A program made the translations under genes and the position numbers. 28,010 nt of DNA from a virus, in the IMG/VR virus record IMGVR_UViG_3300045999_000585, positions 1 to 28,010 of that record; one strand, written 5' to 3'. Below the pieces are notes generated by a model, which saw only the letters and a list, made by a program, of their open reading frames with translations, ran no database searches and was not told where the DNA came from. How positions within the stretch are numbered: the first letter of the stretch is position 1; every line of letters begins with the position of its first letter. Shown one piece after another: positions 20,332-24,074 of this stretch.

Positions 20332-20480
20332 TTCAGACCCCTTTGCATGAGCTTCACCCAGCACCGAGCGCAATGCCACTTGGCACGCACCGTGACACCA
20401 CCAAGCGGATCAGCCTCACGACTGCACACATCACAAACCTTGAGCTTGTGCATCCTGCTCATTTGTTCTTCAACTGTCAT
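20328..20480 (-). CDS. Small zinc-ribbon-like protein (50 aa)
   Basis: ATG 20480 overlaps the helicase stop (ATGA), and AAGGAG lies 6 bases before it inside the helicase gene. The product reads MTVEEQMSRMHKLKVCDVCS and later WHCARCWVKLMQRGLK. The pair CDVC (16-19) and CARC (37-40) with an intervening 17 residues is a classic two-knuckle zinc ribbon. Its stop overlaps the next start. Function is unknown; a DNA or protein contact module for the neighbouring replication proteins is possible. Confidence 0.75.
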   Translation of the reverse strand: MTVEEQMSRMHKLKVCDVCSREADPLGGVTVRAKWHCARCWVKLMQRGLK

Positions 20481-22066
20481 TCCCAACTCCTTTTCATTAC
20501 CCTAAAAAACTTTCCGTCCTTGCGGTACTCAATCCACTCTGGTGGCGTGGCCTTGTTCATGTTCTGCACCATGTCCTCCAGCGTCTTCACATTCAGACCA
20601 CCAGGCACAATGCTGGCGCTGTTGGCAATACTCAGTAGCTGGCTCATTGCACGCTGGCCTGCATAGCCTTCATGCATGATTGGCAAATACTCGGTGATCG
20701 GTGTGTCGCTGAGGCCACCGTAGTAAGTAACGGCCAGCATCTCGATGCCAGAGGCCTTGCTGATGTGCTTGCGCCATGTCCAGCTCGTCACATCCAGCTC
20801 TTGGCCATCCAGCCCCATGATGTCGTCATTTCGCAACACCATCGATTTTTTTACTGGCTCAGGAAACTGCTCACCGCATGAAGGGCAAATCATCACCGAG
20901 ATGTGCACCAGCTCACCACAGTGATCGCACACCTTGACTGGTGCCTCGCCATTTCCATCGCCACCCTTCTTAGGCGGCTGCACATTGGTGATCGGACCAT
21001 GCGACTCGACCACACCAGCAAAGTCCAGCACCAAGCAATGATCGGTGTGGCTCTTGACCCTCATGCCACGGCCTGCCATCTGCACATACAAACTAGCGCT
21101 CATGGTCGGGCGCAGCATCACCACCAAATCGATGTCTGGATAGTCAAAACCAGTCGTCAGCACATTGGCATTGGTGAGTGCACGCACACGGCCAGCCTTG
21201 AAATCGGCCAACATGCGCTCGCGCTCTTTCTTTGGTGTCTCACCAGTCACACACTCAGCGGTCACACCATGCTGGCGCAGGACTTCGGCCACGTGCTCGG
21301 AATGCTTCACACCAGCACAAAAAAACAGCCACGCCTTGCGCTCACCGGCCAAGCTCATGACCTCATGCACCACAGCCTGATTCTTGTCGTCGGTATCCAC
21401 AGCAGCCTGCAACTCAGACTCGATGAACTCGCCACCACGCTTCTTCACGCCACTCACATCTAGCTTGGCCTTGGTGACCTTGGAGCGCAGCGTGGCCAAA
21501 TACTTCTTGAAGACCAGCTCCTCGATGCTGACAGGCGTGAGCAGATCGTCAAACAGCGCAGGCTTGTCGGTGATTAGGCCATGCCCCAAGCGGTAAGGCG
21601 TGGCAGTTAGGCCGATCACGCGCAGGTGCGGATTGATGGCCTTCAACTCGCCAAGCAGTTTGCGATAGCCACCCTCGTCCTTGTGGTTGACCAAGTGGCA
21701 CTCGTCGATGATCACCAGATCAATGTGGCCAAGCTCACGCGCCTTGGTGCGCACCGACTGGATGCCAGCAAACGTGATCGGCTCGCTCAAGTCTTTCTGG
21801 CCAATGCTGGCGCTGTAGATGCCCATCGGTGCACCAGGCCAATGCTGGCGCATCTTCTCGGCATTCTGCTCAATAAGCTCCTTGACATGGGTCAGCATGA
21901 GCACCCGAGTCTCTGGCCAGTTCTGCAAAGCATCCTTGCACAGCGCAGCCACGATGTGCGACTTGCCTGAGCCAGTCGGCAGCACCAGACAAGGATTGCC
22001 AGCATTGCCAGCCTCAAACCATCGGTACAGCTCGTCGATGGTGCGCTGTTGGTAGTCACGAAGCAT
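20477..22066 (-). CDS. DEAD/DEAH-type superfamily 2 DNA helicase (529 aa)
   Basis: The product starts LRDYQQRTIDELYRWFEAG, then Walker A PTGSGKS (30-36), motif II DECH (121-124), motif III TATP (154-157), and the second RecA-like domain with NANVLTTGFDYPDIDLVV and motif VI QMAGRGMR (329-336). A zinc knuckle follows (C380, C383, C394, C397: CDHCGE and CPSCGE), then a 130-residue C-terminal domain. This is the phage version of the SF2 helicases related to UvsW and RecQ-like enzymes; it probably unwinds replication or recombination forks. ATG 22066 directly abuts the stop of the overlapping frame at 22067 and lies inside the methyltransferase end. Confidence 0.92.
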   Translation of the reverse strand: MLRDYQQRTIDELYRWFEAGNAGNPCLVLPTGSGKSHIVAALCKDALQNWPETRVLMLTHVKELIEQNAEKMRQHWPGAPMGIYSASIGQKDLSEPITFAGIQSVRTKARELGHIDLVIIDECHLVNHKDEGGYRKLLGELKAINPHLRVIGLTATPYRLGHGLITDKPALFDDLLTPVSIEELVFKKYLATLRSKVTKAKLDVSGVKKRGGEFIESELQAAVDTDDKNQAVVHEVMSLAGERKAWLFFCAGVKHSEHVAEVLRQHGVTAECVTGETPKKERERMLADFKAGRVRALTNANVLTTGFDYPDIDLVVMLRPTMSASLYVQMAGRGMRVKSHTDHCLVLDFAGVVESHGPITNVQPPKKGGDGNGEAPVKVCDHCGELVHISVMICPSCGEQFPEPVKKSMVLRNDDIMGLDGQELDVTSWTWRKHISKASGIEMLAVTYYGGLSDTPITEYLPIMHEGYAGQRAMSQLLSIANSASIVPGGLNVKTLEDMVQNMNKATPPEWIEYRKDGKFFRVMKRSWE

Positions 22067-22979
22067 TCAAGATTCTCCATGCTGTTGCTGCGCACAATGG
22101 GACTTGTCCATTTCCAATGGCTTTAAGTCTGTCCATCCTAGCGGCCACCCCATTAGCCACTCGACCCACGTTGGGTTCAGTTGACCACTGTTCTGGTCTA
22201 CCGATTGACTCAACATAATTTGTTTTCCCTTGGCTACTCTTCGCTGAATAGATGGGTTGCTCATGTTTCCTCGATCTCTGTTGTCCGATGCCTGGGGAGT
22301 TGGAAACATTTTTTCCTTGGTTATGTATCCTATTGGTGGCCCTGTTCCCGACCATTCCACTTGTTCCGATAGGCATCCCGCACCCACTCCATTGCGTCCT
22401 ATTTTCTTGCGGTAATCCAATCTCTTTTCCATCGATTCTGCTGATCGAGTTGGTATATCTACCGTGCTTGGAGTTAGCCACAATCCAGATTCTTTCTCGT
22501 TTATGGTTTGCACCAACGTCGGCAGCAGATATAACTCCCCACCTACTGTCATACCCCATTGCGGTAAGGTCTGCAAGGACTCGTTCAAGTCCTCTAGAAG
22601 TGAGCATTGGACTGTTCTCCACGAATGCGTATCTTGGTCGAACCTCGCCAATAATCCGTGCCATTTCTCGCCACATTCCGCTACGTTCTCCGTCGATTCC
22701 TGCGCCTTTTCCTGCTGCGCTAATGTCTTGGCATGGAAAGCCTCCAGATACAACGTCAACAATTCCTCGCCACGGATTTCCATCAAAGGTTTGTACGTCA
22801 TCCCAAATTGGGAAAGTCGGGAGAAGACCATCATTTTGTCTGGCGCACAATACGCTTGCTGGGTACGGTTCCCATTCAACAGCACAGACTGTTCTCCATC
22901 CAAGAAGTTTCCCGCCAAGTATTCCTCCACCAGCGCCTGCGAATAAAGCCAGCTCATTTAATTCTCCTTGTTTGTTCAT
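22056..22979 (-). CDS. DNA cytosine-C5 methyltransferase (307 aa)
   Basis: The C5 methyltransferase motifs are in order: motif I FAGAGGG (13-19), motif IV GGFPCQD with catalytic C83, motif VI VENSP with E121, motif VIII HKRERIW (159-165), and motifs IX-X near RLKAIGNGQVP (284-294). The target-recognition region, about 170-275, is rich in N, S, G and Q. The enzyme methylates cytosines in a short site, which in phages usually protects DNA from host restriction. AGAGG lies 8 bases before ATG 22979. It overlaps the helicase start by 11 bases. A second long frame in the +1 frame overlaps almost the whole gene. Confidence 0.92.
   Translation of the reverse strand: MNKQGELNELALFAGAGGGILGGKLLGWRTVCAVEWEPYPASVLCARQNDGLLPTFPIWDDVQTFDGNPWRGIVDVVSGGFPCQDISAAGKGAGIDGERSGMWREMARIIGEVRPRYAFVENSPMLTSRGLERVLADLTAMGYDSRWGVISAADVGANHKRERIWIVANSKHGRYTNSISRIDGKEIGLPQENRTQWSGCGMPIGTSGMVGNRATNRIHNQGKNVSNSPGIGQQRSRKHEQPIYSAKSSQGKTNYVESIGRPEQWSTEPNVGRVANGVAARMDRLKAIGNGQVPLCAATAWRILNAS
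22067..22957 (-). CDS. Candidate overprinted gene inside the methyltransferase gene (296 aa)
   Basis: This +1-frame reading of the methyltransferase gene is open for 296 codons. It has its own AAGGAG 6 bases before ATG 22957, and its TGA is directly followed by the helicase ATG. Recognisable segments are HAKTLAQ (75-81), SWRTVQCSLLED (112-123), LPQWGM (131-136), ESGLWLTP (156-163), FPTPQASD (218-225) and NPTWVEWLMGWPLGW (261-275). I recall hypothetical phage proteins with this motif series near C5 methyltransferases. But each motif lies opposite a conserved methyltransferase motif (PCQ, ENS, ERIW, motif X), so the pattern could be a shadow. The first 70 residues resemble nothing. Translation is plausible, not shown. 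Confidence 0.5.
   Translation of the reverse strand: MSWLYSQALVEEYLAGNFLDGEQSVLLNGNRTQQAYCAPDKMMVFSRLSQFGMTYKPLMEIRGEELLTLYLEAFHAKTLAQQEKAQESTENVAECGEKWHGLLARFDQDTHSWRTVQCSLLEDLNESLQTLPQWGMTVGGELYLLPTLVQTINEKESGLWLTPSTVDIPTRSAESMEKRLDYRKKIGRNGVGAGCLSEQVEWSGTGPPIGYITKEKMFPTPQASDNRDRGNMSNPSIQRRVAKGKQIMLSQSVDQNSGQLNPTWVEWLMGWPLGWTDLKPLEMDKSHCAQQQHGES
22964..22969 (-). promoter_or_regulatory. Internal AAGGAG ribosome site for the overlapping frame
   Basis: The perfect AAGGAG lies within codons 4-6 of the methyltransferase gene and 6 bases before ATG 22957 of the overlapping frame. No start codon of the methyltransferase frame lies at a useful distance after it, so it can only serve the other frame. 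Confidence 0.6.
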
Positions 22980-23019
22980 CTCATAAACCTCTAATAAAAG
23001 TATTTACGCATCTCATAAA
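22977..23019. repeat. 11-bp direct repeat (minus strand TTTATGAGATG) between the methyltransferase genes
   Basis: The copies lie at 22977-22987 and 23009-23019 (CATCTCATAAA on the + strand), 32 bases apart. One contains the stop of the upstream methyltransferase gene and the other the start of the downstream one. A partial third copy (CTCATAAA) is at 23034-23041. Local duplication at a gene junction is likely. Confidence 0.6.
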
Positions 23020-24074
23020 TTTTTAAGCCATTGCTCATAAACTTTTAATGCGATCTGAGCTGTCATAACTGGTGGAACACTCATTCCAATCATGTAATGT
23101 GGTTTTTGTTTGCAAAAGTCATAGTCCTGTGGATAACTCCCAATGCTGCAAGCCTCTTGTTTGCTTGTGAACTTTGGTGCATCAAACAAAACAAGACTAT
23201 CTTCATGCGATGTGAGCGTTGTGGCCACTTTGTCTTTGTAGAGATAACTCTGGCTAAAATATTTGGTTTTACCTGTAAGCCTCTCGCAAGCCTCAAGCAT
23301 TGCCTTATCGCCATCTTGTCTAGCTTGCCAAATGGTTGTCATGTTTTCGCTAAGGTTGCGTCCTTCGCAATCTTGAATTTCTCCAAACACAATGGGTTTT
23401 TCATTGAATTCAAGTCTTAGCTTTGGAACCATCGTGAACATGTCCATAGATTCCAAGAATGGTTCTGCTAAGTCTTTGCGTAAAGCGACAAAGAAAACAC
23501 GCTCTCTACGTTGTGGAACACCCATAGTTGAACCATCAAGCAACCAATGCTGAACAATGTAGCCAGCCTCATCAAATGCCTCATAAATGCGTGAAACATA
23601 AGCTCTAGCCTCACCTAACAATAAACCTTTGACGTTTTCGGCAATTACAACCTTGGGTTGTAGTTTTTTAGCCAAATCAATGAAGTCAAAGAAAAGCGTA
23701 TCCAAAATCTGTTCGGCTTGTCCTTCACGAAACTTCTTCTCTTTTCCCCAATCATCCCCACGGTTTCCAGCCATTGAGAAACTTGAACAAGGTGGCGAAC
23801 CATCCAAAATGTCTAATTCGTAAAGTTCCTGTGGCAAATCATCACGTAACTTGAATTCTTGGATTGGCTCCAAATAAGCGTATTTTGGTTTGTGATTGGC
23901 TTTGTAAGCCTCAATCATTTTTGGATCAATTTCATTGCATCCAAGCACATCAAAGCCAGCCAATTTGTAGCCCATTGTTGAACCACCACCACAAGCAAAG
24001 CATGAAAACACCTTGCCTTTGTCTTTTGTGAAATTGGCTTGTGCCAAAGTCCATTTATATGGAAATTTATTCAT
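23013..24074 (-). CDS. Second DNA cytosine-C5 methyltransferase (353 aa)
   Basis: Motif I is CFACGGGSTMGYKLAGFD (25-42), motif IV GSPPCSSFS with catalytic C96, motif VI AENVKG with E146, and motif VIII QRRERVFFVAL (188-198). The C-terminus has a motif X-like segment (MIGMSVPPVM). It is clearly a different enzyme from the methyltransferase next to it and probably has another target site. The gene is visibly richer in A and T than the helicase and nuclease genes around it, which suggests later acquisition. The start overlaps the nuclease stop (ATGA); 33 bases with a direct repeat separate it from the next gene. Confidence 0.92.
   Translation of the reverse strand: MNKFPYKWTLAQANFTKDKGKVFSCFACGGGSTMGYKLAGFDVLGCNEIDPKMIEAYKANHKPKYAYLEPIQEFKLRDDLPQELYELDILDGSPPCSSFSMAGNRGDDWGKEKKFREGQAEQILDTLFFDFIDLAKKLQPKVVIAENVKGLLLGEARAYVSRIYEAFDEAGYIVQHWLLDGSTMGVPQRRERVFFVALRKDLAEPFLESMDMFTMVPKLRLEFNEKPIVFGEIQDCEGRNLSENMTTIWQARQDGDKAMLEACERLTGKTKYFSQSYLYKDKVATTLTSHEDSLVLFDAPKFTSKQEACSIGSYPQDYDFCKQKPHYMIGMSVPPVMTAQIALKVYEQWLKNL

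Follow-up and report, generated by a model that had tools for sequence, protein, structure and literature searches.

Except in small viruses, long overlapping genes on the same strand are considered rare, and annotation tools do not permit such overlaps. The locus described here raises the question of whether one stretch of DNA encodes two proteins of nearly equal length and, if so, what the second protein does. In the window (the whole 28,010-nucleotide stretch of viral DNA that was analyzed), a C5-cytosine DNA methyltransferase gene (alpha, frame 0) contains a second open reading frame (beta, +1 frame; Table 1). A preliminary description of this DNA had proposed that both frames are translated, with the caution that the +1 motifs might be shadows of methyltransferase motifs. 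Its coordinates, the AAGGAG-N6-ATG arrangement, the TGA abutting the helicase ATG and the run of 296 open codons are all correct in the sequence. Furthermore, the +1 frame is, as it had stated, the longest nested open reading frame on the same strand in the window, and the motifs that it listed (SWRT, LPQWGM, GLWLTP, FPTP and WVEWLMGWPLGW) are all found in the +1 protein.

Table 1. Features of the methyltransferase locus in the window
Feature	Position	Strand	Basis
Alpha, C5-cytosine DNA methyltransferase, frame 0, 307 aa	22056..22979	-	PF00145, phrog_363, M.HhaI profile
Beta, +1 open reading frame, 296 aa, 891 bases, ATG start, TGA stop	22067..22957	-	
AAGGAG, Shine-Dalgarno-like, 6 nt 5' of beta ATG	22964..22969	-	sequence
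AGAGG, weaker Shine-Dalgarno-like, 8 nt 5' of alpha ATG	22988..22992	-	sequence
Alpha motif IV, PCQ with catalytic Cys, residues 82-84	22728..22736	-	invariant in methyltransferase alignment
Variable region, alpha residues ~168-257, beta TP-motif part	22209..22478	-	dN/dS, stop shuffles
Beta LNPTWVEWLMGWPLGWTDL, motif IX equivalent, beta residues 260-278	22124..22180	-	
Alpha motif X, GNGQVP, residues 289-294	22098..22115	-	sequence, relatives' alignment
DEAD/ResIII-type helicase, downstream	20477..22066	-	profile matches

The beta TGA (22069-22067) directly adjoins the helicase ATG (22066), and the alpha stop codon lies 11 nt within the helicase gene. The start codons of alpha and beta are 22 nt apart in the window, and each has its own Shine-Dalgarno-like site. 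In this geometry, each wobble base of frame 0 doubles as the second base of a +1 codon, which is the most constrained one. Alpha matches PF00145 (E 2.1e-31, residues 11-203) and phrog_363 (E 2.9e-68). Beta matches phrog_1008 (E 3.2e-26); this family is labelled DNA methyltransferase, and the label is silent on the second-frame reading of its members. It should be mentioned that another C5 methyltransferase gene (23013-24074, minus strand; 353 aa; PF00145, E 1.1e-44) is located immediately upstream in the same operon.

Viral contigs were scanned independently with the +1 protein and then with the methyltransferase, and many relatives were obtained with the methyltransferase query alone. Among 111 distinct viral loci, a single one failed to keep the +1 frame open from end to end; the +2 frame contained about 20 stops in each. 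Identity was ~45-75% for the +1 protein and ~55-74% for the methyltransferase, and one near-identical viral locus (L081) showed 98% identity in the +1 protein. Frequent stops in relatives had been named beforehand as an observation that would count against dual coding, and both frames were intact in 109 of the 111 loci. The exceptions were L045, with one +1 stop, and L054, with one frame-0 stop. No viral locus other than L045 (2501-3372) has its +1 frame interrupted, and the methyltransferase of L045 is intact.

To extend the comparison, bacterial genomes were scanned with the +1 profile, which yielded 375 relatives, of which 80 were kept. These 80 loci came from Proteobacteria, Verrucomicrobia, Planctomycetes, Acidobacteria and others. 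The methyltransferase was present at the identical one-base offset in 80 of 80 bacterial loci and in five phage loci; among these 85 loci, there was no +1 relative without a methyltransferase. In the loci examined, the predicted beta chain always accompanies alpha. Six bacterial loci (L182, L188, L190, L194, L217 and L229) have one frame-0 stop each, with the +1 frame still open. Some loci, viral and bacterial, have lost a single frame in this way, although sequencing errors may account for these stops.

A second, distant branch, of the E. coli phage K1ind2 type, was retrieved with the K1ind2 methyltransferase alone. In this branch, the longest +1 run had a mean of 295 codons as compared with 128 expected, and 35 of 38 genes gave P<0.01. 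A motif IX-like sequence, LNPxxSxWLMGY, was found in the +1 frame only. Phage N15 gp58 and Rhodobacter phage RcJoli behave likewise. Six further matches were found in a sample of 149 Enterobacteriaceae genomes, and all were of the second-branch type. By eye, no obvious restriction gene was seen beside these six.

The start sites are conserved as well. Loss of the internal ATG and Shine-Dalgarno-like site in relatives had likewise been put forward as evidence that would count against dual coding. The +1 ATG was kept in all 109 intact loci, and a Shine-Dalgarno-like site lay within 18 nt 5' of it in 144 of 184 contexts. Among 184 sequences, 144 place the methyltransferase start 4 nt 5' of the +1 ATG (NTGAATG or similar), so that one Shine-Dalgarno site could serve both chains; overall, the two starts are usually 4-5 nt apart. 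In another lineage, the order of the starts is reversed (ATGTCATGG). For the Asn codon that overlaps the beta ATG, 105 of 105 genes use AAT, as compared with 46% AAT elsewhere in the same genes; the genes are related and this figure is indicative only.

We then consider selection on the two frames. When the synonymous codons of the window gene were shuffled 20,000 times, leaving the encoded methyltransferase and its codon usage unchanged, the +1 frame acquired a mean of 6.2 stops and was never open. In 107 genes, shuffling of frame 0 synonymous codons gave an expectation of ~614 stops in the +1 frame (364 + 251); none was observed. The reverse shuffle, of +1 synonymous codons in the 107 genes, gave ~1,125 expected frame-0 stops, and again none was observed. 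For the variable region, ~398 frame-0 stops were expected by shuffle and none was observed. At the fourfold sites of codons 1-160, 0.71 were identical versus 0.41 in flanking genes of the same phage pairs, the flanking proteins being more diverged; in 86 comparisons matched for protein identity, the values were 0.81 and 0.69 (flanking), respectively. The dN/dS values for frame 0 and the +1 frame were 0.18 and 0.59 in codons 1-160 (motifs I-VIII), 1.03 and 0.42 in the variable region (codons 161-250), and 0.42 and 0.34 at the end (codons 251-290), all from simple pairwise counts of close pairs, without a tree, among related sequences that are not independent. With dN/dS at 1.03 for frame 0 and 0.42 for the +1 frame, it is the +1 frame that is under selection in the central part of the gene, and frame 0 need only stay open there. 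Thus, the overlap is real and strongly conserved and, as judged from stop and substitution patterns, both frames are protein-coding and under purifying selection. The excess constraint that the preliminary description had asked about is present in synonymous shuffles, fourfold sites and dN/dS alike. Since none of the three contrary observations that it had set beforehand was made, its idea of dual coding is supported.

What, then, is the beta protein? The alpha profile matches M.HhaI over motifs I-VIII only. Alpha carries the PF00145 motif set, namely I, IV (PCQ), VI (ENx), VIII and X, in one chain; the role of the PCQ cysteine as the catalytic residue of C5 methyltransferases is established. 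The motif X pattern is in frame 0 in 102 of 107 genes. The alpha chain does not also carry motif IX and a recognition domain: the corresponding region is neutral and no motif IX is recognizable. A motif IX-like pattern was found in frame 0 in none of 107 genes and in the +1 frame in 85 of 107. In beta, one to several TP motifs precede LNPTWVEWLMGWPLGWTDL near the C-terminus, and the motif IX equivalent of its relatives is LNPxWVEWLMGWPxGWTDL. When the +1 protein profile was compared with the recognition/motif IX region of actinophage enzymes by hhalign, the probability was 97.3% (E 2.3e-11) with an actinophage profile of four sequences only.

In some actinophages, these parts are found in other arrangements. 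In mycobacteriophage ShiLan gp70, motif VIII is followed, within a single frame, by TP motifs, EWMMGWPAGWVTE and motif X, and Peaches gp76 has TP motifs, EWMMGW and motif X in one frame. The Peaches enzyme is split side by side into gp77 followed by gp76, and in Ryadel the second gene begins 209 nt inside the first. On the basis of the alignment with the single-chain actinophage enzymes, we read the C-terminal half of beta as the recognition/motif IX part. In ShiLan gp70 and SchottB gp4 (L252 802-1971, L251 955-2025), the first TP motifs are read in the +1 frame, whereas motif IX is read in frame 0; these mixed frames are either the remnant of a fusion by frameshift or a third architecture that is still in use. 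At beta residues ~150-250, relatives have 1 to 6 TP motifs and the count tracks protein length (r 0.64). This varying number suggests a modular recognition region.

Other searches returned less. No family for the +1 protein was found in Pfam, NCBIfam or PADLOC, and a PDB sequence search with the +1 profile gave no match. The AlphaFold model of beta is poor (mean pLDDT 58.5), being fair only at residues ~170-190 and 220-280, and Foldseek with this low-confidence model gave no match. The alpha model is also poor (pLDDT 51.7), and the pLDDT of its variable region was set aside as evidence; Foldseek matches of the alpha model include M.HhaI and M.HaeIII.

We consider it very likely, from the motif distribution and the selection patterns, that the locus encodes one heterodimeric C5-cytosine DNA methyltransferase composed of alpha from frame 0 and beta from the +1 frame. 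Ribosomes initiating at the neighboring start codons would produce both chains, which would fold together. Alpha would provide AdoMet binding and chemistry (motifs I-VIII and X), and beta would provide the small site-recognizing domain (the TP-motif region and the motif IX equivalent). The segment of alpha under the beta recognition region would be a mere linker between motif VIII and motif X; this role would explain why frame 0 is kept open yet is neutral there. Phage DNA would then be methylated at a site set by beta, probably giving protection from host restriction. A broader proposal is also probable: in a large phage and prophage clade, old enough to span many bacterial phyla and at least two distant methyltransferase branches, the target recognition domain (TRD) and motif IX are carried by a second, near-full-length frame, and the alpha counterpart is a neutral open linker. 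The preliminary description had held no function for beta; its dual coding stands, and the recognition/motif IX assignment of the C-terminal half is new here.

Among other explanations, the one that survives best is that the +1 frame encodes an independent protein, such as an anti-restriction factor or a regulator, whose overlap with the methyltransferase is fortuitous and whose likeness to motif IX is incidental. We judge this to be improbable. The conserved N-terminal half of beta (residues 1-150; +1 dN/dS mildly below 1, 0.59-0.71), for which profile searches of Pfam, NCBIfam and PADLOC gave no homologue, would agree with it, as would the six loci in which one stop interrupts the methyltransferase but the +1 frame stays open. 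However, a separate function does not account for the lack of motif IX in frame 0, for the hhalign match to the recognition/motif IX region of single-chain enzymes or for the side-by-side split in Peaches, and none of the 85 loci has a +1 relative that stands without a methyltransferase. Programmed frameshifting, from frame 0 to the +1 frame after motif VIII and back before motif X to give a single chain, is very improbable: two shifts would be needed per protein, beta has a start codon and a Shine-Dalgarno site of its own, the codon across this ATG is exclusively AAT, the +1 frame is kept open and conserved even ahead of motif VIII, from the gene start onward, which would be needless if the shift came only after that motif, and no slippery site was noticed in a casual inspection, although the functional pieces do alternate between the frames along the gene and ShiLan and SchottB do mix frames inside one gene. 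Finally, it is scarcely credible that the +1 frame is non-coding and simply mirrors conserved methyltransferase motifs and codon bias, and that the database proteins are annotation errors, because the position of its motifs opposite PCQ, ENS, ERIW and X and the label hypothetical on annotated +1 proteins are outweighed by the absence of +1 stops against the shuffled expectation with protein and codon usage fixed, the constraint at fourfold sites, the homology to in-frame actinophage proteins and the like behavior of the K1ind2 branch, and the caution about shadows is rejected since in the variable region it is frame 0 that is neutral and the +1 frame that is constrained.

The proposed heterodimer may be compared with known systems. 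M.EcoHK31I (YGGCCR; Lee, Kam and Shaw 1995, cited in PMC3404938) is a two-polypeptide C5 methyltransferase, with motifs I-VIII and X and the predicted TRD placed in the large chain and motif IX in the small chain (PMC3404938). The proposed enzyme is like M.EcoHK31I in that motif IX is on the second chain and alpha has motifs I-VIII and X, a likeness by motif layout. The small chain of M.EcoHK31I is reportedly read from another frame inside the large gene, and its length is said to be 176 aa. In contrast, beta is nearly as long as alpha here (296 versus 307 aa) and starts within a few codons of it. Unlike in M.EcoHK31I, the TRD would not be in the large chain, and the recognition region is apparently in beta. 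The family is found in phages and prophages, and no linked restriction enzyme was noticed in a casual inspection. M.AquI is a split C5 methyltransferase with motif X in the small chain and genes side by side (PMC3404938). M.AquI also has catalytic and recognition parts on separate chains, and Peaches gp77/gp76 resembles its layout; unlike it, the locus here has motif X in alpha and completely overlapping genes, an arrangement other than the AquI type. In the ShiLan phage methylase gene, an out-of-frame HNH element is an inserted homing endonuclease (PMC11855218). This too is a hidden open reading frame in another frame of a phage methylase gene, whereas the second frame here extends along the methylase gene proper and its product resembles a part of the enzyme. 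As judged from motif layout, M.EcoHK31I is the precedent for the proposed enzyme, which would differ in having a beta about as long as alpha that also has the recognition region.

In the literature on dual-coding methyltransferases, we found nothing beyond mentions of EcoHK31I and AquI and the unrelated ShiLan HNH insert, and two overlapping-gene surveys contained no DNA-methylase case. No report of the phage-wide arrangement was found in the open-access literature; subscription papers were mostly outside this scope, and novelty is judged accordingly. Hundreds of sequences from phages and bacteria have this layout, and annotation usually records one protein. In Pseudomonas phage phPA-G (L161 3001-3729) and mycobacteriophage XFactor (L257 1378-2106), the +1 protein is a 'hypothetical protein' and the methyltransferase frame is missing. 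Both frames are annotated in Paenibacillus phage Diva ('g49 internal gene'; L163 2641-3345) and E. coli phage K1ind2 ('Mte8-like protein'; L245 1370-2167). The worry about mis-annotation in the preliminary description was partly justified: one frame is usually recorded, and sometimes this is the +1 frame as hypothetical, with the methyltransferase left out. Because the loci are mostly half-annotated, databases would be without one subunit of many methyltransferases, and any specificity predicted from just the catalytic chain would be based on a neutral linker. About 300 dual-coding codons are conserved across phages and prophages of many phyla; if the proposed reading is true, few overlapping gene pairs on one strand in phages and bacteria would be as long or as widespread. 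The locus would allow a direct test of how twin start codons yield two chains, and could serve as a natural scaffold for a split methyltransferase.

An antisense open reading frame of 244 codons (22252-22986, plus strand) lies over the methyltransferase gene in the window. The antisense frames of relatives are also low in stops, perhaps as a by-product of dual coding.
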